This document shows positions 6,601-55,069 of a DNA stretch of 64,000 bases, in pieces. Numbering within the stretch: position 1 is the first letter of the stretch; every line of letters starts with the position of its first letter. The notes beneath the pieces are model-generated. The model saw only the letters and a list, made by a program, of their open reading frames with translations. It was not told the origin of the DNA and ran no database searches. The position numbers and the translations under genes were made by a program. The DNA is taken from the NCBI GenBank assembly GCA_034620365.1, contig JAQGEQ010000225.1:806001-870000 (forward strand), given 5' to 3'. This DNA is from Pegea sp. RAD2-039 (taxonomy: Eukaryota; Chordata; Thaliacea; Salpida; Salpidae).

Positions 6601-9085
6601 ATACAATAATTACAATAATAAGTTTGTTATAATTAATTTGATAAACTACTTTTTAAAATATTTTGTTTTATTTAAGTATAGAGTCACATATGTAAATCAT
6701 TAGACATTATAATAAATATAAAAGCTGTAACAAAATTTCAGACAGAAAATAATGATGCAATGTTACAATGTGTACTTTATTTTAAATTCTATTCAAGTTG
6801 AAAATATTTTCACAAAGATCAAAATTAATAAGGAAAAAATTAAATTAATTTTGAAACAAAGATTTCTTAGTTACAAACTTCAAAACCTTAAACTGTATCA
6901 AACTGGTATTTTGTAAGTAATAAAATCAATTAAATCTTTAACTAAGCTATATTAAAACGATAAATAACAACTTTCTAGATTATTTTAAACATTTTCAAAT
7001 AGATAGTTCAAATTTTTGATATTTTCTAATCTTATAGTCCCTCCTAAGTGAGCTTATGAGAAAGATAAAAAAATTTGAGAAATAGTTTCTTATCTAAACG
7101 TTTTATACCAGAAAATTGACAACAAACACTTTAACTATTCTAAAACAAGAAAATTACAGTTTCATTATATAGTTTACTTTTACTTTTTTATTTATTAAAA
7201 ATTTTGAAAAATCGTTTAAATTTTTTTGCTATAAATAATTTCATTTTTTTGTTGGTATTTTAATTGTATCCATTTATTTTATCTTTTAATCAAATTAAAA
7301 ACAATTTACAAATAAAGAGATTCTTTATAATAAAAAATAAAACTATAGAAATTAATTGATAATAATTGTTATTAAAATAAATGTTAATATAATTTACAAT
7401 AAAAAAATAGAAACATAAGAATTATATTTTAACAATATCTAGTTAATATTTTTGATATAAAAAAGGAAGTAATTATATTTTACTGTTTTCTGTAAATATA
7501 TTTATCGGAAATATTTATTATAAAATTCTTTAAACATATAATGATTATAAATATCGTATATCATAACTTTCATTCTATTTGAACAGTATTAAATTTTTTT
7601 AAAGAGATGACAGTAGGAGACATGAATTTCATGTAATTCAATAACAACAATTGATTTTGTTATCGAATGTCAATTGGTTTCTACTTAGAACACTTAACTT
7701 TGAATAATTGAGCTATTTAGTTTTGATAATCTGTTGCTTTGTGTATTTTTTGACAAGTTAGTTGCTACGCTTAAAAGTAAACAGAAAACTATGTGATTTA
7801 ATAAATAAACTCTAGAAAACTTAACATATTTCACAAAATTTGTAAAATACAAAAAAACAATTTGATTTGGCTATAATAAAATTTAATTTTACATCTGAAG
7901 TAGTTTTTATTATTTAACTGACATCGTTTTTTAATAAAAAGTTTCTCTAGAATGTGAATTGTAAATTGTTTAGAATTTTGATTAAAGAACAAAATTAATT
8001 TTTTAAGTAAGAAAGTTTTTTCTTGAAATATTTCAAAATTTGAAAACTTTCCAATAAAGGAAGGGAGTTGTTTTGAGTTAAAAGCCAAATTATTCCTAAA
8101 AGTTCCAGTAATTGAAAACAGAAAAGGAATTTCATAATAAATATAGAAATTCTTAAACACTCATAAAATTAGAAGAAATAAATTTTCAACAAACACTAGT
8201 TTAAATAATGAAATTACAAAAAGTTTTTTTTGAGTCAACTAAACAGCTAACAATTTCAAAATAAGAACAAAATTTAGTAACTAATTTGTTAAACATCTTT
8301 AAAAAATGTCTTATTTTTTATCTTGCAAAGCTCTACAAACTTTTCTTAATAATTATAGAAAACTAAAAATAAACTTTTTTGAACTTTATACATGAATCAA
8401 AACCTTATGGAGTTAAGATAAGAATATTTTAGTTGAAATCTTGATAATAATTTTATCATTAAATACGATTATTATCTATGGATATTGTGATAACCAATTA
8501 CAAGATACAAACCTCAAACGAATAGAAGATGATATAAATTATCGAAAATATTTCACAATTGTTTTTATGAATTTTTTCAAGTTAGAAATAACAATACTTT
8601 TCACCACCTTCAATTAACCAATGATCTATGTTATAATTTATATAATATTATATAATATCATATGATGTCATCAATAATAATAATAAATACAAAACCAAGA
8701 AAATCCTAAAGAAAGTTTTAGATTATTTCAATAGTATTATAAATGTTAAATTTTTCAAGAAATTTAAGAATTTGAGTTCATTAATCTTTAAACGAGTTAT
8801 TTTGTGAAAGTTTCGATAATAGCAAAAGAAGACAATACTGAAAAAAATTGCAGCCTCTAAAAATGTTTTTATTCTTTCAAGAAAAATAGCTTCATCTCAA
8901 GTTTACTTGGAAGACAGCAAAGGTGAGGTTGTTTGTAAATCACTTCTTGTGTATGTTTGTTAAGCTTGTTAGTTACAAAATTTTGTGATGGTAAATTACG
9001 AAAGTTTATATTAAATTTGAAACAATTTACTTGACTTGATAGAACTGAAGAATGAGGTTTTAGAAATTCATTGGTTTCAGGAAAT
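657..9085. other. Gene-poor AT-rich intergenic DNA between two divergent genes
   Basis: No supported coding exon. The ORFs present are AT-rich Lys/Ile/Phe/Asn-rich frames without family resemblance or splice context. The stretch separates the 5' ends of the SLC6-like gene (minus) and the MUC4-like gene (plus), so both promoters should lie here. Two less AT-rich islands stand out, 2820-2960 (with a CCAATCA box) and 4970-5115. A TATA-rich microsatellite-like stretch lies at 3915-3960. One exact TGACGTCA occurs at 2039-2046. Confidence 0.7.
8880..8921 (+). other. Possible 5' UTR exon end of the MUC4-like gene
   Basis: A good donor, CAAAG|GTGAGG, at 8921/8922 lies 165 nt before a TTTCAG acceptor at 9080 that immediately precedes the ATG at 9086. 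A cis-spliced 5' UTR exon ending at 8921 would explain that acceptor. The alternative is that the acceptor takes a trans-spliced leader. Transcript data would decide. Confidence 0.3.
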
Positions 9086-12000
9086 ATGAATTTGTTTAAA
9101 GTTTACTTTGGAATGGTTTTATTGTTTTATCAATTACAAGCAAGAAGAGGTAATTATAAACCAAATAGTTTTAATTTTGTAGTTGAGCAAAGTTTTAGAT
9201 AAATTACTCAATATTTATATTTAATATAACAAAAATATAAATTTAATGAACCATAACAATTTGTTACAAACAATTTTTTAGTTGATTTTAGAAAAGAAGT
9301 TGGTGCTTGTGGGAAAATCCCTACAGCTGGCAAGTATGCGTCTCTGTTGCAAAACTCTACAACGACACTTGCTTTCTATCAATGTATTCCAAATTATGGT
9401 CCTGCTATAGGGAGTAGTAAGATAGAATGTTTGAATGGTTCTTGGAGTAAAAAACCTCTAACTTGTCAAGGTATCATTTTAAGTAACTTTCATGATTGTT
9501 ACTCGGTTGGAAATGTTATAGATCTGTTAAAATGTTATCTACTTCAACTTTAAAAACTTTACTCTTTTTGTTCAAGACGCTTCAAAATCATGATTTATTT
9601 AAACTTTTCATTTTTATTCAGATTTTTTAACCAGTCATTTTAATGATATAAAAAAACTTTCGAGTTTTTAATTAGATAGAAACAAAATATTTCATTTTTA
9701 TAAACCATAGAGTTAAGATCGATGTTGTGATTACCTTAACAAGTTTACAAGTAAATTATTAAACTCAGATGTTTACAATTGTGAAGATGAACACAAGCCT
9801 TGTAAAAACGGGGGCAAATGCATTGAATATGATCCTAATTTTAGTTGTCAATGTAATGTAGGACGATTAGAAGGTACTCAGACATATTTTGGAGGACTCT
9901 GTGAGGAAGGTGAAGTTTTATTGAAGATGTTTAAGACTTTAATATTTGAATCACAGCGAATGGAGCTTGGAGTAATTGGTTGAGTTGGAATAATTGCACT
10001 TCAACTTGTAATGAAGGTATCCAAATACGTAAACGAACTTGTGATAACCCAAGTCCAACTGCAAAGGGTCAAATGTGCCGAGGATCTTCATTTGAAGTTA
10101 GTTGATACTCATACTACAATCGAATTTAATAATTTTGTTGCAAAGAGTAAATACTGTTTGATGACGTCATGTCCTGTGGGTATGTATGAATGGTGCGAAG
10201 AAGACTTTGATCGTTGTGGCCAGTTGTTTGAAAAAAGTTTCTGCTCCATTAAAGATGGAGCCTACAAATGTACATGTCTTGCTGGAGTGGAAGAAGAACT
10301 CGACGAAAATGGTCGTTTTATAACTTGCACAGGTATCTTTTATTTAACTAATAATGAAAAAAATAATTCTTCTGATTATTTCATACAACTATTCAGTTTG
10401 TTAAGAAAATAGTTTATAATTTCACTTAATACAGATATAGATGAATGCAAAGATAATCAGAACACATGTGACTTGGATAAATCTCTTTGTATTAATACAT
10501 ATGGATCTTATGAATGTGTATGTAAAGTAGGGTATGTTCTTCACGAAGAGAAAGAAGGGTGTAGAGGTAAGTGTTTACAATAATAGTTGTGATAAAAAAC
10601 ATCAAATTATAGAAATAAAAACATAAAAAAAACTTCAATGAAATGATTTCTAAGAAAAAATTTTCTTTGAGAGTTTTTATTATAAAATATAAGTTGTTGT
10701 AAAATAAACTTTTTAGAAAGGAAAATGTTTGAAGATTTTGTTGTTAAAATGTCAAAATGATATTTTGGTTATATCAATTCATGCTTTAATAATATTATTC
10801 AGTTTTCTTTAATCTAAAATCTTTAAGCTTTATGCTAGTTATTCACAAATATTCACACCAATCAAATGTTCATTGTGTAAATAAGTGAAATATTATTCTA
10901 GAATTATTTAGTTAAATAGTTTTAATTATTTATTAGCTTGTTTAATCTTAAATTAATTAATTCTAGATCAATATTTATAAAATTGAGTTTTAATTAAGGG
11001 TTTCAGCAAATTAAAAAATTCTAGAATTAGGTTTCGTTTACAAATACTACTTTGATTATTTCAATTTCATTTAAATCTATTTTGATTTTTAGATCTAGAT
11101 GAGTGTGTCGAAAACTTATCAAACTGTGACGTCAATGCAGAATGTGAAAACTTCCAAGGAAGCTACAAATGTAAATGTAAAGCAGGATACCAAAGTACTA
11201 CAAGCAACAGTACCGCATATGATGGCGAATGTATAGGTAGGAATAAACCAAAGCTAGAAAATTATTTACTCAAAGAATTAAACAAACAAACTGATTAACT
11301 ACTTTTCTAATAGTGTCTAATTCCATTTACTCTAAACATGATATAATTACTAGTACAAGAATTGTGTTGTAGAGACTAGATTACTACCATTTGGAAAAGC
11401 AGTTGGTGACTCAAAAGCAGTTGATGTTTCAACAATTACAGATGAAAGAGTCACTGAATTGATTGAGCTTCCTTCGGGAATTCCCTTTTCTTATCAAACG
11501 TTAAATGACTCTGTTCAGTGTCGGAGCTTATATGTAAATGAAGTTTGAATTTTAGAAACAATTCTTTTTTGTGTTGACTTTTGAAAAGTAAAAAATAGCT
11601 TTAAAGTAGGTTATTTTCCAAAGAAAATTTATTTTATTAAAGTTTTATAAAAATCCTTTGATTTAAAACAAAATTTTTTTATGAACATAAATTTTAAATC
11701 AATTTATTTAGTCGCTTTACTTTCTACTATTTTGGTCAAATTATGTCATACATCTTTATGTAATTAATCAAAATCAATTTTTAAAATCTTGATTCATCAT
11801 CTCTTTCAAAGATTTTAAGTTTTATGATTAAATTTAGCTGATAAAAACAAACATATTTTTATCAGTTGAAAATTGAGTGCATCAAAGTAAAACCAGCTAT
11901 TGTACCATTCGAAAAACGTGTAATTTTTAAAGTTGAGATAAAGAAAGGACTTTAATTTTAAAATCTAAGTATAAATTATTGAAAATATAAACTTTTATTT

Positions 12001-22480: not shown

Positions 22481-24287
22481 GTTATGTGCTCTTACAGGTT
22501 CTACATTTAATTCAGATAGAATTAAAACCGACTTCCTTCATCTGGTTCCTTCATTAACTACAGGTGAGATGAAACCAAGAGAGATATTTAAAACATTTTT
22601 TCGATGGATCTTAACCAGAGCAAATTTTTTTTGTAGGATTGGCAATTGCCATTGTAAGCTTGTTTTAATGAAATGGTTTCGTCATAATTTTTTTGTATAC
22701 TGGAATGTAAGATCTTGCCACTTGATGTTAGAACTTTATGTTTAAAGTATATAGGATCTGTAATTCAAGCTCTACATAGTATTAGATTTTCTATTTATTT
22801 ATTTATTTATTTATTTTATTAAAATAAAACTAGAGGATAATTGATTGTAAGACGAGCAGTTAGATTGTTGCTAAGAGTGGCTCGCTGGTATAATTAATAA
22901 CTGATAAAATATTTCTATTTCATTAAAGCTATAAAACATTTTATATTTTTCTCTTTACTAGTTGAAGTCACTGAAAAACAAAATACTTTCAAAATCTACT
23001 CGAGCTGAAATAGATTTTACAACTATATTTTAAACAAAATATCAACTCTGAAAGCTCGAAACAGTGACACAATTTAAATCATCAATTTGTAAATTGTGAT
23101 TGATTATCAATTGATTTATAAGAATTTATAGAAACAAAAAATTGTTTTAATCTCTTGTAACTTTCATTTAAAACTAAAATTATTTTCGATCAAAATTAAT
23201 AATGAATTTCAAATTTTAATACCTATTGTAACCATTTGATATCATATTCTGTTTAACTTTTTTGAATTGTATTTCTAACGAAAGATTTTTTGTTTTAGGG
23301 AGTTGTAATTTTAGCAAAAAAAAAATTAAAGAACCAGAAGGACTTTCATACTATTCACAGAAGTCTCTTTTAGAAATCTTCTTTTAATAATTACTTGAAA
23401 ATCTATTCATTGTGGTGTTGATGATAAAAGGTTTTTTACATTTTTTTGTTTTCAGAAACTGGAATACTTCAAATAATGAAAATAAGATCAAAAGATTATG
23501 TATATTAAAGGAAATGATTATTTTCATATTTTAAAGACATAGAACCGTTTTTAAACAATTTTTGCAAGCAAAAATTTTATGACTTGCTCAATTATTATTT
23601 CTAAATGTTTTCTGAGCCTCTCTGAAAGCTAGTTTTATTTACAAAAGAATTTATGATTCATTCTAAAGACTTCCAGCGTATTCTGGCTTACTATTATAAA
23701 TTTGAGTTTATTTCAATATTTCCAGAAGTTCTAATTGAATAAAATAAAAATAGAATATTTTTTAAAGAGTTGAATAAAAATCAGAGATTCTTAAGATTAA
23801 ACTGACAGCAAGTCTTATTTAACTTTGATTTGATAAATAAATTTATTTTTTTAATTATTGAAAACTTGTTAAGATTATTTTAGATCATCTAACAATTTTG
23901 ACTTTGAATTGAAATACCACAAAACCTTTGGTTTAAAAAGTTAGATCACAAAACAGAAATCTGTTGATTTATTTAATCGGTAAAAATTCCCGACCAAAAA
24001 CGCCAAGTCTATGATGACAACAAATTTTTGTGTTTGACAAAAGATACTGAGAACTTGCGTGTTTCTAGCAGCAACTGCTAAAGACCTCTAACAGAAACTT
24101 TAAAGGAAGTACTGATGAGGTTCTAATGAAACCACTCACTACTAAATCATCCTACTTAAGCTTTCAACTTTCACAATTTTCATTAGAAGTTTTTTTATTG
24201 AAAAATCAATTTTATATAAAAATAAAGTTTCAGAAGAAGCAAAGTCCTTTAATCTTCATCCTCAACATCCGACATCTAAAGACATCT
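22481..24287. other. AT-rich intergenic DNA, nothing recognised
   Basis: Contains a TTTA/TATT microsatellite at about 22790-22820, possibly the end of an eroded retroelement. The rest is unassigned. It separates the 3' ends of the convergent MUC4-like and DHX16 genes apart from the retroelements. The DHX16 poly(A) signal is probably the reverse-strand AATAAA near 24195. Confidence 0.5.
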
Positions 24288-28612
<4,325 letters not shown>

Positions 28613-37119: not shown

Positions 37120-37345
37120 CTACTCTTGAAATAGAGTTTTATCTTCGGTAAAACTCTTTGCGGAACTTTCCTTTATTTTTCTGCTTCCTAAATATTGGAA
37201 GTTTGTGTCTTGGTCTAAATCCTTGATTGATACATTTCCGTTAAGAAGAATGTTCTGTTGATTGTTGTCAGTAACTTTTACATATTTTTTAACACCACAA
37301 GTCATTCCTGTCTTTGCTGAATATGTGGGTGATGAACCGACTCTG
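37120..37345 (-). mobile_element. LINE relic, RT thumb-region fragment
   Basis: Minus-strand frame reads SAKTGMTCGVKKYVKV, then ILLNGNVS and FQYLGSRKI. This is the K-T-x-V-M/F-x-YLGS-I pattern found C-terminal to the catalytic loop in non-LTR reverse transcriptases. The fragment faces another relic of the opposite strand at 37346-37615. Confidence 0.6.
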
Positions 37346-37615
37346 GAGATATAACTCTGACAACAGTGTACAGAATAATAAGCGAGCAAAGGCTTCGCTG
37401 ACTCGGACACGTACGTCGGATGGAAGACGGACAGATCCTAAATGATCTGTTATATGGGGAGCTACCAAAAGGCGAACACAATATCAGCCGTTCATATTTT
37501 CTCTGTAAGGTTGCAAGCGCGATATAAAATCGCTCAACATCACTATTAGCAACTGGGAAGATATCGCAGCGGATCGCCCTGAATGGCGCTCTCTACTCCG
37601 CAAATAACTGAAGAA
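37346..37615 (+). mobile_element. LINE relic, RT-ORF C-terminus
   Basis: Plus-strand frame reads SEQRLR, an in-frame TGA where the family has Trp, then LGHVRRMEDGQILNDLLYGEL. In another frame come LRYK-like and KSLNITISNWEDIA, DRPEWRS. This is the LRWLGHV-RM ... W-D-A-DR--WR pattern of RTE-like LINE C-termini. Stop and frameshift show it is dead. It lies just 3' of PCF11. Confidence 0.65.
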
Positions 37616-37969
37616 TAGAAAAGAAAAACCAACTTCAAAGAAATCCTAAACATTATCTTTTGACATCATTTCATACAGTTTCAGATCCGTGCATCTAATA
37701 TTTTCATGAACTTTTTATTTATCTATATTTTAATTCGTCATTCTTATTCTAGTTGAGCTTTTGTAAACTTTTAGAACTTAAAGTAGACACAAAATTAGTG
37801 ATTTTTATTCAATGTAAACAAAAGTCGTATGAGATGGCACGAGAACATGTTGAAAGAAGCAGGCTTCATCTAAATGAAATGAGAAAGTCTGCAGAAAATG
37901 AACACAAAACTCTTGAAGGCACACAACAGACGAGAAAAGAAAATAGTAGAAAAGTGAATAAATATTGTG

Positions 37970-40900
37970 TCAAGTGGTGATGGGATCTTCTTGATGATTC
38001 TGTGGAAGTTCGTGACCTGATAGAGGTTCTTGTTTGATGTTGATAGAATCTAATAAGTCAGATGTAACCGAAGGATCCACTTCTGATTCTATTTTCGGTG
38101 AATCGACAACAGGCTCATTTTTCACAACAACTGAAGAGTTTTCTTCTTCTTTTTCTTGTTTGATCTCAATTGTGTCTTTAATCATTGGAGGTTCTTGCTC
38201 TTTAATAGGAGTCTGAAAAGAAAGATTAGATCTCAACCGTCACTACATCATCACAACTCACCAGCAACGGAGACGAACTGTGGTCACCATGGCAACTTGG
38301 ATGGAAGTTCAATCCTTCTACAGTGATACAATTACCAAATTGCCATTCTTCATCATTGTCGTTGTAAAAAGTGTTGAAGGATTCGTCACAAACGCGACAT
38401 TTCTAGGAGAAGAAAAGATGAAGCGAGAAGGGGGCGAGGGGTTGGGTCACTCACGTCTTCACCCGGCCGACCCGTCAGCGCCACCTGGTGCTTCTTTTCT
38501 TCAACACGTTCATCTACTTGCTCACATTCCATTGGCTGTGAGGTGATTGCGTCTTCTGTGTTTTCCCAATGAATCCAATCCTACAATGAAGACATAAATG
38601 AAGAAACAGATCAGTCACTAGAGGGCGCTTACTGTTGCAGAGCTGTAGAACTGCTGATGAAGCGCGGCGCTTCCGTCTTTACCGCGACGATTGAGCCGGA
38701 AGTGCCAGTCGAGGTGCTGCGCGAAGCGATCGTTGTTCGAACTCAAGTAGCGACTTCCGCAGGTGTTGCACTGCTTGCCGGTGTATAAGCGCTTGATGAC
38801 GTCATCACGTCGACTGTAAACAAGAGTTGGTGAGAAGCGCGTGATTATGACGTCATCGAAACTACAAACATTTTCAAATCGGATTCGAAAGTGATGAGAG
38901 GAATGTCGGTAACTTCAGAGTCGCTGTCGTCTGGCGACTGTGACGTCATCGGGTTGCTTTTTACAGCAGTAGTCTGTTGAAGTAATTGTTAGTTTCAAAT
39001 CAAGTAGCTGAGCAGAAATGTTACTTCTTCGCTCTTTCGCGATGATGACGTCATAGAAGACGCGTTACTGATCATTCCTTTTGAAATAAGATCTTGAAGC
39101 AGCTTGTGAACATCAACCGGTTTTGGTTCGCTAATAGGAGCGCTCTTCGCTTCGATTGATTCATCTGCAAATAGCGATTGAGTGATGACGTCATTTCCGC
39201 ACCAAATCAACTGACCTATGACGATGTCACGACGCGCCATCTCCGGATGTCGGCGTGTTTCGTCACTAGGTGGCAGTACTGAGTGATAGTGTAATACGTC
39301 ATCAGTGCGTGGAGGCGGAAGAGGTCCTAAGTCGCGATGACGTAGGTCGGGGTGGTGGAAGTGGTCGGGGTGATGACGTAATCGCGGCGGGATGACGTCA
39401 GGACGATGAAGTGGATGATCTAAGCGTCGTAGATGAGGTGGCAAGTCAAAATGACGAGAAGCGATGACGTCATGTTGTGAGTGACGTCCCAGGTCAGCGT
39501 GGTGACGTGGTGGGTGATCATGGCGACGATGATGTGGAATTTCGGAATGATGACGTAATGCAGGATGGTCAAGATGATGACGAAGAGGTGGTTCGATATC
39601 AGGAGGATAAGTTGGATGAGGAATAAGATCAGGACTTCCGTGTGGATGTCCACGACGCGAAGGAAAGCGCATTGACGATGACGTCATCGGTGGTTCAGAC
39701 AATTGATTAGATGGTTGATGAAATGGTGATGGTGGTCTTCGACGACTTTTGTGAGCTTCATCCATATAGTGACGTTCCTAGCAACAAGCAAATCGGTTGC
39801 TTAGTAACCAGCAACATCACAACAACATCAACTAACTCTTGCGCGAGGATGTAGACGTCCTCTAATTCCTCTCCGATCACCCCCATACATTTGAAGATTT
39901 CTTTTCCGGTCGTCAAGACAACCACGCGCGATCCCCATCACTGGATGCGGCGGGGAAGTCCCTTTCTCATCCACTCGACGTTTACGCCTGCATATAACAC
40001 ACGATATGAGACGTCATCATTGGTAAAGTTGTCACAAACCTTCGATCTTGATCCCATCGAATTTTACTCTCTATTCGCCAATCTTCGCTGTTTTCCGCAA
40101 CTTTCGACTCTCTGTAGCGAGAAGAGTGTTTTGTGACGTCATGATCATCGAACCACTTACCTTGGATTGAAGCCGACTTTGAGATGGGTTTCATCTGTGG
40201 GTCGTTTAGGGTTCAAGTCATGATCCGTCTGTGGGTCACAATCGGGTCGTTTCGCGATTTCAACGTTTTTAACGACGGCCGAATGGTTGTCATGGTTACG
40301 AGCATCAGAAGACGAAGGACTCAATTTTTGAGATCCAGTTTCATCTTCAACAAGATATCTCTTCTTGAGAGGAAGAGGAGGAGACTTGAGTGGCTCACTA
40401 CTAGTGGTGGTTTCCATGGCAACAGCTGTTTCGTCGTCATGTTTGTTGTCTTTAGAAGTCAGTATAGTAGAACGCTTTAGAGTTCGAACATGCTTCTCGT
40501 AAGCGAGTTGTTGTTGCTGGGCAACGCCGCCATTCATGTTTCTCGATTCCATTTCAGCGATGATAAATTCTTCGGGTTCTTCTGGTTTCCTAGCAACCAT
40601 CGTATCCTTCACATCGCCATTCAACACTTTGTTTTTCACCAAACTCTTCTTACTAATCTTATCAGATCGCGCGGCTAGTTGCTTAGCAACCAGAGGCGGA
40701 GGTGGGTTCATTCGACGGACTTCATTCTTAATGGCGCGATTATTAGTTGGTCTAGAAGGTGGAAAGGCGTTTGGAACGCGAGAAACGCGATTGTTTGCGG
40801 TGGATTTAGGGTAAGGGTAAGGTCTCATCGGTTTCATCGAAGTCTCATCTCGTCTTCGAATCGGTCGTATCTTGTTGGTGTCTAAAGAAGATGAAAGAAG

Positions 40901-43900
40901 ATAAAAGACGCGCGCGAATGGAGGAGAGAGGAGCACCTGTTGATGTTGAAGATGAACATCGAGTAGCGAGCTTTCTCATCACTTCGCGATGTTCAGATGA
41001 CGACAAAATGCCTTTGCGTAGCAACCGATCAGCCTGGTTACGATCGCAAGCGTCAGATACACATCGCGAAATCATGACATCATCGCTCACTTTCTTTGTG
41101 ATTTGTTGTCGCTTAGCGTCGTTAATCACAACTGCTGGTGTCGCGGTTGTGACGTCAACAACGCGACGCCTTTTTCGCTCTGATAATTGCTTGGCATCCA
41201 CAATGACGTCATCATCAGGCTGAGGGGAGAAGCGCGCTTCTTCACCATTCGACGATCTACAAATTGAGACGAAACAGGTGATGATGACGTCATAAACGTG
41301 ATGACACTTACCCTGGTGATGAAGAGTCCTGGTTACTAGTAGCAACGAGATCAACAACAGGTTTGCGCGCGAGTCTTGGATCCTTCTGTAAGCAGATATT
41401 AACAAACTGGTTGCTACTAGCAACAAGCGCGCGACTTACAGCTTGTGGAGGGGTAACGGTTCGTTCTCTCTTCACGCCTTTCACTTCGCGTTTAATCGCG
41501 GAATTTTTGTGGATTTTGTTGGAATTGGTTTTAGCATGGAATTGTTGGGAGGTTGATGCTTTTAATTTGTTGTTAGTAGCTTGTACTTGCTTCGGAGGAT
41601 GTGATCGAGATGATATGACGTCACCGTCAGTTGGATTTGTTCCGATCACAGGATGTCGGATTGTTTTAAGTTTTTTAACTGTTGGTTGGGGTTCCTGAAG
41701 AGAATAATTTGTTGATGAAACTTCATGATGTCAAATATTGATTTGAAAACTTACAGATGATGAAGTGGTTCCTTGGATGGGGGGTTTCTCATCTGTAACA
41801 TCAAATTAGAAATGAATATTTATGTTTCGAGTAAATAGTTTTAGTTACAAACCTGTAGATAATGTTTCTTGTATTTTACTATCTGAATTTACAGAAATAT
41901 TTCCACTCTGCAAAAAGCAATTTCAAATAATTAACAAATTCTAATTGATTGGTTATCAGGTTTTGAAAAGTTACCAATTCATCTAGTTGCTGCTTCATTT
42001 TATCCATTTCTCGAAGTAGTTTATCTCGACGAAGTTCCAGAAGCTCATGTTCTTTTTGTTTAATTATAGTTTCAATTACATTGGAGTCATTACTCTATAA
42101 AGAAACATTGAAATGTTAGAGAAGTAGGAAATTGAGACTAGCACCTCAAAATCAGATTTAAAATTGAATAAATAATTTAGGTAAAAAGTGAATGTAGTTA
42201 AATGAAACTCACATTTACTGTTTTTGAAACAGAACTTGTAGAAACTGGTTCTTTGGTCTTACTCTGAAATTAGAAAAGATGTAATTAATATTTAAAAATC
42301 TTATAAATAATTAATTAGGTAGAAAATACAGTTATATAATTACTAAGTAAAATATAATATCATACTTTATCCCAAAATTTAGGATTGATATAGATCTTTG
42401 GTTTGGAGTTATCAATGAGTTGAGATGAAGCTTGTCTAACAGGCCAGTTTGGATCTAGTGAATTGATCACAACATCTAACTCATGAAGAATTGCTTGATC
42501 AATATGAGTGTCCCAAGTATTTCTTAGTTTAAATAAATGTGTTTTGACGTTGTCATCACTCTAAAAAATAAATTATTATTTTGTTGTTTTATAAATAAAA
42601 TTCAAATAAATTATCATCAAAATGAATTTAAAGTTTGAACTTTTAATAAATATTTTCTTTTACTTACTTCTTGAAATGTTTGTTTAAAATTATTGACAAG
42701 ATTTGAGCTAAACTGAGTTTTGTAAGCAGCACCAACGTTTTTGATAATTGAGTCAATCAAATAGAAAATGAGAAGTTTCTTCTTGGCTCTAACCTACATT
42801 AAAATGTTTCATAGTTTCTTATTACTTACACGAAATCTCCAACGGCTGTACATGATGAATTCACCATAAGTACAATTTTTAAGTTTAAATAAGTTATTTA
42901 AAAAACTAGACACTCACAAAACGAAACATGTGAGTGTCTAGGAAAATGCTTTTTAGATGAAAATTTAAAACAATTTCAAGTTTTATAACCATCTTTAGCT
43001 CCCATGTTTGAATTGTTGAAGCCAAGAAAGCGGTGATAAAATTTACAAACAAATGTAGCAAACGAAAATGATTAAAGTTTTTAAAACGTTGTACACAAAA
43101 CACGTTGACGGTTTAATTAAAGTTTAAATCAGCATGAAAATAATCTCAGAAAGTTTATTGATTGTTTTGATGTAGAAATAAATTAAAGAAACATAATACA
43201 ATATTGAAGTATCCATAAGTTTTTATTTTATTAAATTGAAAAAAATCTTTCTAGAAACCCCAAAATATAACTCATCAAATTTGCCTCTAAATCTTTTAGA
43301 AATCAATAACTTGATGTAAAAAAAAACAAAACAAAGCTGCATCTTTACTAAAAAATAGAAAAAATATATATATTTTCTTCTTCATAATTCACTAAAATTC
43401 TATCTATGCCTCTTTGTGCTACCTTAACTATTAGTCTATCTACAAAACATTTAATAAATTGCTGAAAACTCCAAAATAAAAACAAATATTATAAAAATAC
43501 AATATAATATATCGATGTTATAGTAATTTTACTGAAGTCTTTTTACTCTTAACAACTTATAAGCACTCTTGAAAACCAAGCACAACATGTGTCTATAAGG
43601 ACATGTTTTTCAGGCTCAGTTTTGCTGGTTGTTCAAGAATTTTTTAAAGGTCATGGTGCTAACTTGAAGCAACTAGCTTTGTGTCCACACAAAACATTTA
43701 GTCAGATGTCCTAAAAACTTGAAAATCAAAGTTTAAACACATTGCTAGATTGGATAATCTATTAATGAAAAGGTTTTTCTTGAAGTTTAAAATAATTTCT
43801 GATATAATCTTATGTTATAATTCCAAGTGTAGTTTCTTTCTTTATATTTCCAGCTACTTATATTCTCTATACTTTTTATGATTGTTGAAACTATATTTCT

Positions 43901-47903: not shown

Positions 47904-49655
47904 ATGGAAACTATGGTAGATACAAATGGCAGGACCTTGCGGTCAAAAGCTCCAAAAAACCCAAGCAAACCAAGTTCTTCAAAACAAGCTTGCAATGGCA
48001 ATTGCCAAGCTTGTAACAAAACTTGCTCTGGTGAAGATATGGCTATAGATTGCATCAAATGCCTCTCTAGGTTTCACCTCACTTGTAGTGATGGGAATAA
48101 AAAATTATATGATATATTTGAAAATAATAAAATGCAGCAAGTGGGATTTTGTTGGTCCTGCATTAAATGTAGATCTATGGACAAAACAACTACCTCGTCC
48201 AACACTAACAAAAGCCTATTGTCCGACATCAGCAATACCATATCCACTGAATTGGCCAAATTAAAATCCGAAATTGGCAACGATGTTGCCAAAATCAATG
48301 AAAAGATTTCTATCTTATCCAAATCTATGGGTGAACTGGATGCCTCCACAAAGAAGCCTCTCACATGGGCCTCAGTTGTTGGTAATTCTGGATCCGAAAA
48401 AAATACTAGCGTGGTGCAACTTCTTGCCAAAAAGGTTACTGACACGCACAAAAAACTTACTCTGGACCGGGAGGATAGAGAAAACAATGTCATCATCTTT
48501 GGTGTCTCTGAGACTGATAAAGACGATGACATCAAGACTTTTAATCAAATGAGCACTCAAAGCCTTGGTTTTGTGGACGCTCCAAAAGTTTCAATGACCA
48601 GACTCATTTTCATTGAAGACCTCATCAGAAGACTAATAACAGTAGACAATGTCAGTGTGTTTGTGTATGCAGACGACATCAAGCTATTATCTGGTTCTCA
48701 CTCAAAACTCCAAACTACACCAAATATTGTAGAAAACTGGTCTGCGAATTGGCAACTTAAAATCCAGCCAACAAAGTCTGAAGTTATAACATTCTCCCGT
48801 AAGCCAGCTGCCAACTTCAGCAACCAATACTACATCAATGGATCTATTATTGAACGAGTATCCTCAGTCATAGACCTCGGCATTACTCTGACATCTGACT
48901 TCAAATGGCACAGTTATGTTTCCAGAATCTTTGGAAAATCTATCAAGCTTGTCCACCTCATCATAAAGACTTTTAATTCTAAAGATCCATGGTTTTACGT
49001 CAACCTTTTCAAACTGTACATACGCCCTATTCTTGAATACAATGTCAGTGCATGGATGCCATATCAAGTTGGAGATATCAGAAAAATGGAATCTGTTCAG
49101 GCAACATTTACGAGATTGGTTTGCAAGAAACTTAATATCAAATACGAGAGTTATAAGCATCGTCTCAGCTTCTTCAATCTAGATACTTTGGAAATCCGAA
49201 GAATTAAATACGACCTTATTCTGATTTTTAAAATTATTCACAGCCTAATTGATCTTCAGTTTGATGACTTTTTCTCCATTAGTCCCTCCCTCAATTTATA
49301 TCAACTTAGAAGACATAAATTACATCTTAATAGGCCCACTCCACCAGCTACGTTAACCAGATTAAGTTTTTTCTCATACCGCACAATCAGTACATGGAAC
49401 AATCTGCCATCAGAGATTGTCATGTCAAAATCACTTGTGTTGTTCAAGAAAAAGCTGAATTTTTATAATATCGCCAACATTGCCATTTCTAAACTGTGAA
49501 TTTTTCTCTTTTACAATACTATGATTCTGTGCAATTCTTCACTGTCATATGCTTTTTCGTTTACACGTCAAATAGATCTAATTTGTGAGAATGTGTGTTA
49601 GCGAGAGGTGCTCTCTTTAGGCACCCTCCTTCACATTTATTGTAATAAATAAATA
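47904..49655 (+). mobile_element. Internally deleted CR1/jockey-type LINE with a single fused ORF (47904-49499)
   Basis: One open frame of 531 codons. The N-terminal half is a LINE ORF1 with a PHD-type zinc finger (residues about 33-90: CNGNCQACNK, CIKC...FHLTC, CWSCIKC) and a helical region (about 105-140). At about residue 232-235 it passes in frame into the end of the reverse transcriptase, with the catalytic loop FVYADD (about 252-257), KPTK/QPTKSEV, LG-TL, RPILEYN and the C-terminal region to residue 531. The endonuclease and the first RT motifs are missing, so it cannot encode an active RT although the YADD loop is present. After the stop comes the family 3' tail (49585-49655) with hairpin GGTGC...GCACC and ATAAATAAATAA. 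The lack of stops means a young copy or one spread in trans by a full-length relative. Confidence 0.85.
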
Positions 49656-49840
49656 ATATAAATGAAGATAATAGCATCCCAGTAAAATGTTCTTTATAAA
49701 GCTTTTGTAAAAGAATTACAAGATATTCAGATAAACGTCAAAACCACAAACAAATTCTAAATAATCTTAAGAAAGGGCTGGTAATTACGACCATTGAACT
49801 TATAGCTGGACAAAACATATTTCTATATTATTACAAAAAA

Positions 49841-49900
49841 AGCAAAAGAGGGTGCTTGAAAAGAGCATCCCTCGCTAGCACGCATTCTCACAAATAATAT
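49841..49900 (-). mobile_element. LINE/SINE 3' tail fragment
   Basis: Reverse complement has GAGAATGCGTGCTAGCGAGGGATGCTC then AGCACCCTC, a diverged copy of the tail at 49585-49655. It lies 190 bp away in opposite orientation. Confidence 0.7.
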
Positions 49901-49934
49901 TATGTATAACAGGTTGTATATTTTATTCAAATAG

Positions 49935-50010
49935 GCTGACGTGGAGAGTGGAATGCTGCTGTATTGGTAACAACTGGATCTCCATAACTTCTGCCCTAGC
50001 ATATATATGC
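49935..50010 (-). repeat. Interspersed repeat fragment, inverted partner of 19620-19700
   Basis: Reverse complement shares ATCCAGTTGTT and the CCACTCTCCACGTCA end with 19620-19700, with CATATA-rich sequence at the other side. Family not recognised. It adjoins the LINE tail at 49841-49900. Confidence 0.5.
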
Positions 50011-50469
50011 ATTCATATATGAGGTATATATATATATCTGTTAGCTGACACAGGCCACAAATAAATTAACAGTTCGTACTATTGTAAATCGCATGTTCTT
50101 CAGTTCTACAGATAACTTCCATACATATGGTCCTTGAAACTGGCTTGTAGTTAAGTGCAGTGTGTGTAGGACCGTTTTTCTGAATAGGATTAATGATAGC
50201 TTTCTTCCTAACGTTTAGTAGCTCCTATTTGCCTTGATATTAAAGGGAAGAGATAAAGGTAGTAGGGGTGTTAGAAACTGATGATTAAAAAAAGATAAGG
50301 CCTTAGTTATCATATCGACCGTTAAGTCAAGATGTATCAACTTAGATACATTTATAAGAATGTTGGAGTAGGAAAGGGAAGTATTTGGGATCTCGGCTTA
50401 AGCTTGTGATTTATGAAGCTAAAAAACGTTTTCTTGATAGGTGAAGATAAGACTGCACTTTCTCTTCCT
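50011..50469. other. Unassigned DNA between retroelement fragments
   Basis: Less AT-rich than the flanks but with no recognised ORF, RNA gene or family. It lies between the repeat at 49935-50010 and the LINE relic starting near 50470, so may itself be old retroelement sequence. Confidence 0.4.
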
Positions 50470-51190
50470 AAATGGAAATTGGAAATATTTTTCTTGTAAA
50501 CTATACAAAGATCTTTGTACAGAGATTTTATGAAAAAGCTTTAGTTTGTTTGTTTAAGAGGTTTTGCAAATGTTTTAAATTCTTTAAATATTTGGGCAAA
50601 TGTGGTTTCTTGTTGACTAGAAAAAAAGGTATGAACTTTTCAATCGAATCTTTAACGATGTTAATAAGTCTTGAGTTAATAGTAATGATGTCTTCAATAG
50701 AGTTGAAAACAGAAATCAAGTCAACATCTGATAGAAACTTGTTGGTACCATTAGTGGCGAAGCGGTTGCTACACCTACCTTCTAGCTAGGAAGTACCGGG
50801 TTCGACCCCAGGTGGAGACATATAAAACTCCTGAGAAAAACCATAAAAAACTCATGAGAATGTGTGTTAGTGAGATGTGCTCTCTTTAGGCACCCTCCTT
50901 CGCATTTATATATATATATAAATAAATAAATTATAATTTCCACAGTAAAAATTCCTTTTGTTTGAAGTTTTGAAGTTCATAGAAAAAGTTTGATGAAACT
51001 TGAATTCAATCATGTTATGATCGCATGTCGGAGCAAAAGGTTCTTTTTGATCAATATGAAAAATATTCTCAGGTTTTGATGTCATAAGAAGATCCAAAGT
51101 ATTACCACTAACTTGGGTTAAAAAAGTAATCATCTGAGATAGATTATTGGTATTGAGGAAGCTTACAAAGGCATGACTTAAAATTATTAA
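50470..51190 (-). mobile_element. LINE relic (endonuclease to RT linker), split by a SINE
   Basis: Reading leftwards: 51190-50940 encodes the endonuclease end (GNTLDLLMTSKPENIF, CDHNMIEFKFH), nearly collinear in nucleotides with 21010-21230. It breaks at NFYCGNYN, and the frame resumes at 50735-50528 with KFLSDVDLISVFNSIEDI and P-LPKYLKNLKHLQN, the linker before the RT domain. The 50740-50930 SINE occupies the break. Confidence 0.7.
50740..50930 (+). mobile_element. tRNA-derived SINE with LINE-type 3' tail
   Basis: tRNA-like head: Pol III A box AGTGGCGAAGCGG (50753-50765) and B box GGTTCGACCCC (50799-50809), with a degenerate anticodon arm between. A short body follows, then GAGAATGTGTGTTAGTGAGATGTGCTC...GGCACCCTCCTTCGCATTTAT (50856-50908) and a TATAAATAAATAAA end. 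The tail is the same as that of the 47904-49655 LINE, the usual arrangement of a SINE mobilised by its partner LINE. It is inserted in a LINE relic of opposite strand, without an obvious target duplication. Confidence 0.8.
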
Positions 51191-51449
51191 TTTTAAATTA
51201 TTAAAAAAAGTAATAAATAAAATGATTATTAGGTGAAGCTTACATTTCGTAGCATGAAAACTTTTATCTAGAATAAAGTTTTTTTTATTAGCAGGTTATT
51301 ACAGCTATTAGAAAATTGTTAAATTGTTTTCTTAAAACCTTTGAAGTGTTTTATAGATTATTTACACAAAAACAGATGTTACTAACGAGTAGGGCTTCAG
51401 ATATATAAAAAAACTTAGGCAACAGTATAAAAATATATTAGGAAATCAA

Positions 51450-51523
51450 AGGCACCACCGAGAGTCGAACTCGGGATCTCCTGTTTACTAGACAGGCGCT
51501 TTAACCAACTAAGCCATGGCGCC
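51450..51523 (-). tRNA. tRNA-Thr (AGT)
   Basis: Cloverleaf folds cleanly: acceptor GGCGCCA/TGGTGCC, D-arm GGCTTAGTTGGTTAAAGC, anticodon stem CCTGT/ACAGG with loop CTAGTAA (anticodon AGT), T-arm CCGAGTTCGACTCTCGG, discriminator T. A and B boxes match Pol III consensus and there is no intron. Identical to the copy at 51780-51853. The nearest T5 terminator is about 16 nt downstream. Confidence 0.95.
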
Positions 51524-51779
51524 GGTGAAAGAGGCCTTCAAAACCATATTTGTAAATTTGATATAAAAGCAAATTATAAAAGTAAAAGGGACTGCTTCAG
51601 CTGAGAAAGGTCCTGCTGAATGTAGTATGAATGATGATGTTAAAAACGAAGCAAGATGCAGTGAGATACAAAATAAACTTTTTTAGGGTTTATTCTTTTT
51701 CCTATAGCTGTTTGTTTAGTAGAGAGTGCCATTTGGAGCAATTGTAGTAAAAATTAATAAACAGAAAGTATATAAAAAG
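51524..51779. repeat. Spacer between tRNA-Thr genes with a dispersed repeat
   Basis: Contains 51648-51710 (AAGCAAGATGCAGTGAGATAC ... TTTTAGGGTTT-TTCTTTT--TATAG), which recurs in diverged form at 55993-56054. Nothing else recognised. Confidence 0.5.
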
Positions 51780-51853
51780 AGGCACCACCGAGAGTCGAAC
51801 TCGGGATCTCCTGTTTACTAGACAGGCGCTTTAACCAACTAAGCCATGGCGCC
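51780..51853 (-). tRNA. tRNA-Thr (AGT)
   Basis: Base-for-base the same 74-nt tRNA as at 51450-51523, with anticodon AGT and intact A and B boxes, 256 bp upstream of it on the same strand. The 3' end runs directly into CTTTTTAT, a good Pol III terminator. A local tandem pair without similar flanks, which suggests gene conversion or selection on the tRNA body. Confidence 0.95.
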
Positions 51854-52392
51854 ACGTGTTCGTAACTCAGTCTCAATAATGATATTATATATTTAAAATT
51901 GTTATTTCGTAATATAAACAAACCGATTTTATTTCACAGATGTAAGTTTAACTATTTTCTAGTTCCAATTATTTTCTTAACTTTAAAATCTTTAAAAATT
52001 AAATGAAATAAGAATAATCAAATGATGATTATAGAAACGTTAATATACTCAAATAGCTGTTGTCATCAAAAATCCTCTCATAATTGTTTAGTTGTTAAAA
52101 TTTTTTATAAAACCTATTGTAAAATGTCATAGAAATTGTAAATATTTTATCTGAAATCTAAAACTGTTTGAAATGATTTAAATTTAAACATCCTGTTTGA
52201 TGTAAGAGGTAGAAAATTGACTTTTTGAGACTTAACGACAAAATATTTCTCGTATAGTTTAGTTTATTGCTTGTAAATAATTGAGTAAAAATCAGTCTTT
52301 TGTCTTTAGCTTTAATTAGTGCAACAATTTCTAGAAGTTAAATTATGCTCTAATCGGTTCTAAACACAACAAGTTACTGTATAATAAGTAGG
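51854..52392. other. 3' flank of the SAC1 gene
   Basis: AT-rich. Holds the probable 3' UTR and poly(A) signal of the minus-strand SACM1L gene (reverse-strand AATAAA near 52263). Nothing else recognised before the tRNA pair. Confidence 0.5.
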
Positions 52393-55069
52393 CTAGTCTT
52401 GCTTGGGTTTGACATGGAATAGAAGAGGAACGTTTACAAACTCACTACCGTTTTGAATGACATATCTTGCCATGGAAACAGTTACACAACCCCACAGACC
52501 AACTAATGACATTTGCTTCGCGAAGCCAGCAGCTGATTGAAAATAAAACATAATAAAAAGAGAAAAAATCAAATAGGATAGTCCAATGATTGGTAATCGA
52601 TGCTGAGGCTTCGCGAATGGTGAATTAGTTTGGTCCACAACTACATAGTTGCCCAGCAGCAAGTCGATGGAATCCTGTAGACGATAGAAGTTAGTGATGA
52701 GAATTAGTAGAAAAATAACAAACTTGTCGAAAGCCATCGTGGAAATTATTCTTCCAATATCTAATAGCGGAGTTGTAACCATCTCGAAGCATACCACGGA
52801 ATGTTCGTTTACCAGTTCGGGTGAAATCGGTTTTCAGCGCGCCTGTACCAGCGTATTGAATCGAACAGAAATCAGCATTATCAGCCCACATGTTCTTCAT
52901 CGTCAGATCCAATTCATACTAACAACAAAGAAGCTGTTGCTAGGGAAACGATGATGGTTGCTAAGTAGTACCTGGTCCTCTATGTGCTCATAAGTGCTGA
53001 TAATTCCCAATTGAACCAGTTGGCTGAGTAAGGACTTACGGGCAATTAGTGATTGGACCACATTAGTTCTGTCTAAGCAGTCCATACAATTGGTCCGAAA
53101 CACACCAGTCTGTCTCATCAAAACCTTCGAACCTCTTGCCTGTCATTGAACATCGAGTAGTTGCTAAGCAACAAGCTACATCTTCAACTTACCATCATGA
53201 AATATGCAAATTCTGATTGAGCAAGTTCAATCTTATCCATGAGAATATGCAAATTATGCCACTTGTTCCTTCCACAGTGATGATGAAAATCAAAAGCTTC
53301 GTAGCCTACTTTACTTCCATCTCTCATCGAATTTACAGCGTTCTGAAACTCGCGCGCTAACACGTTCTCACTCCCGTGTTGATTCACCAAATTCAGAGCA
53401 TACTAGATGAAGATCGTGATAAGATTTTACCACCTGGTGGCGTTCTCACCTGTTTTCCATAAATTAAAGATTGTGAATCAAAATGTCTTTCAAATAATTG
53501 CAGATGTTTAGAAGGATCTTCATCTAATTGAAGAGCTGGCTTGTATCTAAAATAGTTGATTAAATCAAAAATATCTGATCAAGTGATGAAACTAACTTGA
53601 TGTTGGGTCGTTGTGACCAAATAAGTGGTATAGAACCTCTGGTTTGGACCACACTACAAGTGTACTGACCATAAGTAACAATTTGTTCAGTTTCCACAAA
53701 GTTAGCCACGTTTCCTGATTGGTCCACACCCCTCACGTTGTATCGCGTTCCCGCGCGATGAGTAGAACGCCGTGAGATAAGAGCAAGGTCGAAAGTGCGA
53801 CCGTTCACGAAGCAAGAGACAATTTTGATGAAACCATGCATAATTGGTAAAGTAAACAGTTGAAGTTGAGGCTGTTCAATGAAACTCTGTAATCCAAATA
53901 AGTTCCATACAAATCTGAAATTTGGCGGGCTTACAACACTTTCAAGTCCGCCAATTCAGAGTTTACCTCTGATCTGCTCGAGCACATAAACCATCGTTAA
54001 AGAATTCACTATCAACAGTTTCCAACCTCTGCATGGTATGAGTAAGATCGAATGAAGTGGAATAGTAGAAGCTTTCAGTATTCAAACTCTCTTGTAACAT
54101 CGATTGAAATGTTTCTAAATCAAATTTCTGTAAATTCAAAATGTTATTACTTTATGAACAAGTTGAAATTATTCAACCTGGCTTTGAGTAAGATGAATTA
54201 AGGACTTCTGGTAAGGAATCACTTCAAATTTGAGAACTTTCCAAATTGAATGTCCATTTAGAACGCCCACAAGAGACCTATCAGTCACTACAATCAGGTT
54301 TGGTCCATTTATGAGACTGATTATACCAAAAATGCCAAAAATTTCCTTTTAAATATAATATTTAATAAGTTTAAATAAAAATGTTTAAAATAGATATACC
54401 AGAAAGAAATAAAAAAGAATATTTAATGAAAGTTATGATTGATATGAAGTACATCTATTATTTACATATTTGAATTTATTCAATGATATTCTATCTATAA
54501 ACAGTAATTATAATTATCTATTTTATTTAATACTTTATGGTTACAGCTCTTAAAGCTAACATATAACAATATAACTGCAAAAAAAAAGTCTCATATAATA
54601 TAGTTCAAAATATAAAAAGTAAATGAAAGTTTTAAAATTATATAATTATTTATTTGTATTTCTTAAATCAAACTAAATAATAAATCATTTTTAAACATAA
54701 TTGTTAATTAATTAAAAAGCAATTCAAGTGATTCTAATAGATAAATAAAAATATATAACAAACCTTTTTAGGTATAAGACATTAAAAGTTATACAAACTA
54801 TAAAAATAATTAAATAATTACTAAAATATATCAAACTAACAATAGTAAACCTTTATAATAAGTAGAAATACTAATTATACCTTGCATTCGGTTATGGATG
54901 GTGGAATATCAAACTTATTATTCTTTAATTGAATATCAAAATTAATTCTATTTATAAGCAACAAATTGTTTAAATTTCCAGTTAAAGGCTCAAAATAAAA
55001 ACAATCATTTGTAATATGCAATCGAATGTGATCACAAACCAGACTCATGCTTTCATATTTTTCAGCCAT
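52393..55069 (-). CDS. SACM1L: Phosphatidylinositol-4-phosphate phosphatase SAC1
   Basis: ER/Golgi membrane phosphoinositide phosphatase that mainly removes PI4P (family knowledge). Nine exons: 54881-55069, 54178-54345, 53967-54127, 53597-53914, 53450-53546, 53193-53402, 52972-53139, 52724-52918, 52393-52674. Total 1788 nt, 595 residues (human 587). Sac domain landmarks: [68 protein letters not shown]. The catalytic CX5R(T) loop CMDCLDRT is intact at about residue 395, followed by WADNAD and [18 protein letters not shown]. The C-terminus has the two hydrophobic spans expected for hairpin membrane anchoring, then a Lys-containing tail ending KPKQD. The ATG at 55069 directly follows TTTTTAG, a 3' splice site with no upstream exon seen, consistent with leader trans-splicing or a distant 5' UTR exon. 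The intron at 53403-53449 is 47 nt and contains a CTCF-like word. Confidence 0.97.

Follow-up and report, generated by a model that had tools for sequence, protein, structure and literature searches.

A CRE-type palindromic octamer concentrated in gene bodies of a Pegea genome, with predicted bZIP sites as one reading

The octamer and its host genes in the window

The window, by which we mean the whole 64-kb stretch of Pegea sp. RAD2-039 DNA analysed here, lies inside a genome assembly of 105.7 Mb and 387 contigs that was searched as well. An earlier note on the window had drawn attention to the palindromic octamer TGACGTCA, the core of the cAMP response element (CRE), placing 13 exact copies in less than 3 kb of PCF11, four in DHX16 and two in a "MUC4-like" gene. 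All of these copies are present as exact matches, and together with a lone copy at 2039 they bring the window to 20 octamers (13 in 38797-41623, four in 24468-25857, two at 10162 and 11127). Dinucleotide-preserving shuffles of the window gave a mean of 0.48 octamers and at most 3, and 20 was reached in 0 of 100. As to the gene names, the CID and Pcf11_C domains back PCF11; the domains of the second gene support a DEAH helicase, its DHX16 name resting on inspection; and the third gene shows EGF and TSP1 domains. The genes and copies are as follows.

37970-43005, minus strand: PCF11-like gene, CID domain near 42.4-42.8 kb and Pcf11_C domain near 38.3-38.4 kb
38797-41623: 13 exact octamers in the GC-rich 3' part of the PCF11-like gene, at 38797, 38848, 38941, 39046, 39186, 39393, 39465, 39679, 40134, 41150, 41204, 41285 and 41616
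41285-41292: octamer in the PCF11-like gene, within an intron of 55 bp that has clear GTAAGT and TTTGTAG ends
24288-28612, minus strand: DHX16-like DEAH helicase gene with helicase, HA2 and OB domains
24468-25857: four exact octamers, those at 24468, 24674 and 25850 in introns of 46-52 bp and that at 24779 exonic
10162-11134: exact octamers at 10162 and 11127, both exonic, in the plus-strand gene with EGF and TSP1 domains (9052-11548)
2039-2046: lone octamer outside predicted genes, local GC 0.20

Gene models throughout come from our own small gene finder, which was trained on the sequences analysed without transcripts and may call GC-rich DNA coding; its trusted introns have a median length of about 54 bp and clear splice signals. 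By these models 12 of the 20 window copies are exonic, 7 intronic and 1 between genes, and the cluster in the PCF11-like gene divides into 9 exonic and 4 intronic copies, that at 38848 being of uncertain class because an alternative splice choice would make it exonic. The earlier note had said that the octamers ignore the exon/intron border, and copies do lie on both sides of it. Its remark that many of them extend to a longer word was overstated for the window, in which the full 14-mer TGATGACGTCATCA is found at 3 of the 20 copies and ATGACGTCAT at 12.

The densest octamer stretches are the most GC-rich in the window: over 24-27 and 38-42 kb, 1-kb bins have GC of 0.40-0.49 and an observed/expected (o/e) CpG ratio of 0.92-1.29. 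Elsewhere GC is 0.17-0.40 per bin and the CpG ratio is mostly lower, apart from some bins near 31-33 kb. The DHX16-like gene has an AT-rich 5' part without the octamer and a GC-rich 3' part with its four copies. As an observation in its own right, GC and CpG climb toward the 3' part of both genes (38001-42000 and 24001-27000) in a genome that is very AT-rich. A second genomic copy of the PCF11 region was sought for comparison, and only the region itself matched. The gene finder extends the PCF11-like gene too far, to 37120, into retroelement-like sequence; pieces resembling non-LTR retroelements lie at 37120-37620 and 47904-53850 of the window and also in loci L006 and L011, as judged from translations with no family search made.

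Genome-wide abundance and preference for gene bodies

The window was chosen for its octamer cluster, so 16 ten-kilobase stretches picked by coordinate (160 kb) were counted as well, and window and stretches together form a 224-kb set. Loci L001-L004, L021-L023, L029 and L030 were selected for octamers. Exon calls are doubtful in the low-complexity genes of L009 and L030 and in the repeat of L029. L009 carries two satellites close together (5266-7029 and 7703-9830, units of 20 and 22 bp, 88 and 97 copies). It was excluded from gene-finder training, from several word counts including those of one-mismatch and factor words, from the order-2 expectations and from the intergenic and GC-by-distance rows; it was included in the 224-kb palindrome ranking and class densities, the 91-site flank profile, the intron and flank-pair set and the word-neighbourhood counts.

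Across the assembly TGACGTCA occurs 27,792 times, and the control palindromes of identical composition, ACTGCAGT, AGTCGACT and TCAGCTGA, occur 969, 694 and 2,917 times; the over-representation supposed from the window is genome-wide. The 14-mer TGATGACGTCATCA has 1,972 copies and its reversal 0, where base composition alone predicts 0.25. Among the 256 palindromic octamers in the 224-kb set, TGACGTCA has the highest z score (43 copies vs 3.45 under an order-3 model, z 21), followed by ACGTACGT (5 vs 0.18, z 11), and the coordinate-chosen stretches alone hold 23 copies. An origin in local base composition or CpG content was rejected by the order-2 and order-3 expectations for each sequence class and by the palindromes of the same composition. 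As an outside control, the 14-mer was looked for in viral contigs, where it lies at at least 120 loci, none with more than one copy among the matches listed.

One exact palindrome so far above composition-matched words recalls HIP1 of cyanobacteria, likewise an exact palindromic octamer far over expectation genome-wide, coding DNA included, according to the accessible part of PMC4390886. A HIP1-like process is the strongest rival to the reading as protein-binding sites developed below. Biased mismatch repair or gene conversion would make and preserve one palindrome, more so in transcribed DNA, and the sites would have no function. The dominance of a single exact palindrome is what such a process predicts.

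The copies are unevenly spread. The first 1.56 Mb of contig C1 hold 100 copies, one quarter of the genome mean, and pairs of octamers 8-38 bp apart number 5,280 genome-wide against 226 at random. The commonest spacing is 20 bp, found in 10 of 56 listed pairs and 466 times genome-wide (2.7 times the uniform expectation), and 37 of the 56 listed pairs fall in C1 at 2.01-2.22 Mb. Domains of about 150-200 kb that are very rich in close pairs (C1:2.01-2.22 Mb and 3.59-3.74 Mb) adjoin poor stretches on the megabase scale.

The earlier note had noticed only one copy in the long intergenic stretches, and the word is indeed rare between genes, although still above expectation. In the 224-kb set, introns (46.4 kb) hold 20 copies, exons (49.5 kb) 17 and intergenic DNA (128.1 kb) 6. 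Gene bodies as a whole have 37 in 95.9 kb, which per base is 8 times the density between genes. The 16 coordinate stretches alone gave 13 in 33.3 kb of introns, 5 in 35.9 kb of exons and 5 in 90.8 kb of intergenic DNA (gene bodies vs intergenic: 18 in 69.2 kb vs 5 in 90.8 kb, about 5-fold, p 0.001); without the satellite-bearing L009 the numbers were 9, 3 and 5 (p 0.02). Against order-2 expectations, also without L009, introns had 16 vs 0.32 and exons 15 vs 0.50. By our own models and domain matches, the short introns and the gene set, which includes tankyrase-like, formin-like and RABGAP1-like genes and EGF/TSP1 proteins, point to an animal genome. Numbers per gene are uneven (18 in the tankyrase-like, 14 in the formin-like and 18 in the RABGAP1-like gene, zero in some genes), and 5' ends are poorer in copies, with 5 of 56 in the first two tenths of predicted genes. 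The RABGAP1-like gene also holds a long minisatellite of units of about 19 bp (L029:1740-3830), probably intronic.

Protein coding is not the cause of the word, as the earlier note had already argued, because the octamer is read in two frames and many copies are intronic. Among 32 exonic copies in the loci examined, 22 are read as DV and 10 as TS, and none lies in the frame in which TGA is a stop. Copies in whichever frame is open, at very high local numbers, could equally reflect a HIP1-like drive that proteins tolerate. The same process would be expected to leave a compositional trace of the kind seen here: GC declines from 0.41 at up to 30 bp from a copy to 0.26 at more than 2 kb, and CpG is likewise raised near copies, as GC-biased conversion would give; CpG between genes is depleted (o/e 0.62).

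Form of the site and independence of its copies

A profile of the octamer flanks at 91 sites shows A (.68), G (.54) and T (.55) at -1, -2 and -3, the complements on the other side, and background base frequencies from 4 bp outward. On the sense strand this profile is nearly symmetric, and left and right flanks are mildly linked (p 0.018). A symmetric preference for TGA/TCA is the extended context GATGACGTCATC of bZIP type, and the flanks agree with the ATF4 motif listed as GGATGACGTCATCC in the accessible part of PMC9930257 and with the CREB test DNA AGATGACGTCATCT in that of PMC11514473. A flank preference that ends at 3 bp and matches bZIP data argues against a HIP1-like process.

The flanks also bear on an RNA-level explanation, in which the self-complementary word would pair between introns of the pre-mRNA or bind a splicing factor. 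The restriction to gene bodies and the frequency in minimal introns, where 10 of 83 well-supported introns shorter than 60 bp carry the octamer, are what such an element would show. The flanks, however, are symmetric on the sense strand, exons carry copies as well, and variants whose RNA pairing G-U would preserve do not clearly outnumber their mirror images (17 vs 12, small numbers). We regard an RNA-level element as quite improbable.

Exact copies greatly outnumber near misses. In motif-bearing genes there are 76 exact octamers vs 1.0 expected, and the 24 one-mismatch words together reach 35 vs 23 expected; in unselected gene bodies the figures are 31 vs 0.8 and 43 vs 26. The ratio of exact to one-mismatch words over expectation is 50 (ln 3.9) in motif-bearing genes and 23 (ln 3.1) in unselected gene bodies. 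Read as a mutation-selection balance, the ratio gives scaled coefficients of 3.9 and 3.1, roughly 3 to 4; a scaled conversion bias of 3 to 4 yields the same word counts as selection, so this figure also suits a HIP1-like process. The one-mismatch halo is small apart from some CpG decay, the central CpG transition being its only clear excess, and a wealth of one-off words biased to the word ends was not seen. HIP1 genomes are rich in one-off words, as far as the accessible part of PMC4390886 reports, but few are found here.

Comparison of 90 flanks gave 44 pairs at E 0.01, of which 35 fall within one locus and represent overlap or local duplication. The remaining 9 link different loci over 15-18 bp only, and 7 of them involve flanks that hold a neighbouring octamer. 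The copies do not form one repeat family, and a single dispersed family was ruled out, there being no sequence beyond the word that copies at different loci have in common. Local duplications do carry copies, namely in L016, in L022, in a 20-bp array at C8:368 kb and in a 36-bp unit at C1:2050 kb, as would be expected of a dispersed repeat, an introner or a transposon footprint. With background frequencies beginning 4 bp from the octamer and pairs between loci so short, such an origin is already disfavoured and we hold it to be extremely unlikely. One of the duplications is internal to the tankyrase-like gene, where identical 49-bp introns with the 14-mer lie at L022:3321-3370 and 4838-4887.

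Company of other factor words and predicted bZIP sites

Words resembling other factor-binding sites were counted in 15 motif-bearing gene bodies (68 kb, L009 excluded) against an order-2 model. The CTCF-like, X-box and E-box words are named by their resemblance to the respective consensus words; among the factor proteins, the search covered those with bZIP domains. The CTCF core CACTAGRKGGC was found 6 times vs 0.02 expected, the X-box GTTRCYNNGYAAC 10 vs 0.10, the E-box GTCACGTG 21 vs 1.31, the ETS word CCGGAAGT 4 vs 0.52 and TGACGTAA 11 vs 2.7. AP-1 (11 vs 15.5), TTGCGCAA and YY1 words showed no excess in these gene bodies, and NRF1 and Kaiso words are so rare in them that there are too few for judgement. 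X-boxes exceed expectation also in octamer-free genes (4 vs 0.10) and E-boxes also between genes (5 vs 0.15). Genome-wide, the CTCF-like word occurs at 570 places vs 14 for its reversal, and the X-box pattern 1,001 and 969 times on the two strands (largely the same places) vs 78 and 86, in part owing to one tandem array. At C3:165672-165968 X-box-like words GTTACCAAGCAAC stand in tandem, in most cases at intervals of 24 bp. In the loci examined, the share of words expected no more than 500 bp from an octamer is 21%, and the counts are 6 of 6 for CTCF-like words, 5 of 7 for X-boxes and 12 of 28 for E-boxes; GGTTGCTA, with 24 of 130, shows no such excess. The instances in the window are listed here.

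24885-24895, plus strand: CTCF-like word CACTAGAGGGC, octamer 106 bp away
38616-38626, plus strand: CTCF-like word CACTAGAGGGC, octamer 181 bp away
39264-39274, plus strand: CTCF-like word CACTAGGTGGC, octamer 78 bp away
39796-41424: X-box-like words in the PCF11-like gene at 39796, 40513 and 40678, with looser ones at 41332 and 41410

The earlier note had left two possibilities, CREB/ATF-type sites spread through transcribed regions or a mutational or copying bias. The former is the better fit. The flanks match the extended bZIP-type CRE, and the octamer-bearing gene bodies are also enriched in further words that proteins bind, one of which is no palindrome; a copying bias confined to a single palindrome would not yield such unrelated words. 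The HIP1-like process, to which this objection applies directly, is in our judgement unlikely. HIP1 as described in the accessible part of PMC4390886 also differs from the octamer, which belongs to an animal genome, strongly prefers gene bodies, clusters, has few one-off words and keeps company with other factor words.

An exact symmetric core with short graded flanks, found at thousands of otherwise unlike places and on both sides of splice sites, is the kind of trace expected from a dimeric DNA-binding protein. The assignment of the octamers to predicted sites of bZIP type is fairly well supported: they share with the CRE bound by CREB/ATF/JUN dimers an identical core TGACGTCA and the extended context, and the genome encodes bZIP domains (12 matches over the cut-off, none assigned to CREB or ATF). 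Their function we infer from sequence. CREs are best known from promoters, but the octamers here lie in thousands through introns and exons and are rare between genes, and the gene-body preference, the numbers per gene and the scarcity near 5' ends suggest a density-dependent role in chromatin rather than promoter CREs. A bZIP dimer of CREB/ATF/JUN type would recognise the octamers at the DNA level; the sites would arise through point mutation and then be retained by weak selection; and jointly, by their density, they might mark a subset of gene bodies, for example by maintaining open chromatin or by protecting the gene against silencing, a mark that would work alongside the CTCF-like, X-box and E-box words, unlike ordinary promoter CREs. 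We give about even credence to this reading as a whole, in which the octamers are bZIP sites across gene bodies that are weakly selected per site and act by density on chromatin. The excess of close pairs, with its favoured 20-bp spacing, counts for it as well. A further and more tentative proposal, which we think possible though doubtful, is that the roughly 28,000 CRE palindromes and the CTCF-like, X-box and E-box words form a dense gene-body code that would label a gene subset, and also domains some 200 kb long, as open or as self, whatever the exon, intron, strand or frame and even at some protein cost. The periodic An/Tn clusters (PATCs) of C. elegans, as presented in the accessible part of PMC7725773, are similarly a non-coding signal across gene DNA that could act by density; they consist of A/T runs with periodicity, whereas the octamer is a CpG-containing palindrome with a chromatin function that is only proposed.

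Several results weigh against the reading as weakly selected bZIP sites. The octamer is above expectation between genes too (6 observed vs 0.27 expected, order-2 model without L009). Up to 45 copies, some of them exonic, stand in one 10-kb stretch (L030) and are hard to see as individually selected; 282 residues scanned from the predicted gene of that locus gave no Pfam match. Octamer density had no significant correlation with GC at third codon positions, intron GC or exon CpG over 27 genes, and the 20-bp spacing is partly plain tandem duplication, as at C8:368 kb. The CpG-transition product TGACATCA/TGATGTCA, which occurs 11,070 times genome-wide, is raised in unselected gene bodies (16 vs 5.5), so some decay is visible. 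Regarding the accompanying words, all six CTCF-like words come from the window or from octamer-chosen loci, with 0 in the 16 coordinate stretches, and the proximity comparison has few control words, of which 2 of 2, 2 of 7 and 3 of 5 are near octamers.

A bZIP protein might also act through recombination. Words that promote breaks tend to be lost through conversion and are not usually amplified, as is generally known. In fission yeast the M26 word ATGACGT, created inside an open reading frame (ORF), is bound by Atf1-Pcr1, according to the accessible part of PMC9775316, and is a CRE-like word active within an ORF through an ATF/CREB protein. In meiotic hotspots of this type the protein at an intragenic ATGACGT would open chromatin and attract breaks, and conversion would leave GC-rich tracts; the copies here are intragenic, GC and CpG are raised around them, and octamer density varies over hundreds of kilobases. 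The same source, however, reports that the full CRE TGACGTCA in ade6 is unbound and makes no hotspot, and M26 is a single created site, with no genome-wide accumulation reported in the accessible text of PMC9775316. Together with the expected loss of such words, this makes hotspots of the M26 type an improbable explanation.

The CRE core itself is textbook knowledge, and cyanobacteria are already known to carry iterated palindromes. In the accessible texts that the literature search covered, the 14-mer was nowhere described and no eukaryotic case of an iterated palindrome came up; the passages searched of two glass-sponge genome papers do not mention the word either. If the octamers are selected, a genome can keep up tens of thousands of transcription-factor sites within its genes, and gene bodies would be a substrate for regulation or chromatin marking at a scale for which we found no animal example in the literature searched. 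If they are the product of bias, they would be a eukaryotic counterpart of the still debated HIP1 of cyanobacteria. Either way, the thousands of replicate sites within one genome allow selection, conversion bias and factor binding to be distinguished.

With regard to a sequence-specific DNA methyltransferase that would match the palindrome, one of the marks of a highly iterated palindrome, the genome encodes C5 DNA methyltransferases, some as intronless ORFs that contain BAH domains; the octamer count in their loci (L024-L027) is zero. These intronless ORFs of about 830-870 amino acids lie at C57:819728-826344, C249:1740707-1742050, C32:10146-38173 and C52:9209-10639. The copy in L027 is without the usual catalytic PCQ stretch, L024 has BAH domains in addition to the methyltransferase domain, and two of the ORFs are inverted about 4 kb apart.

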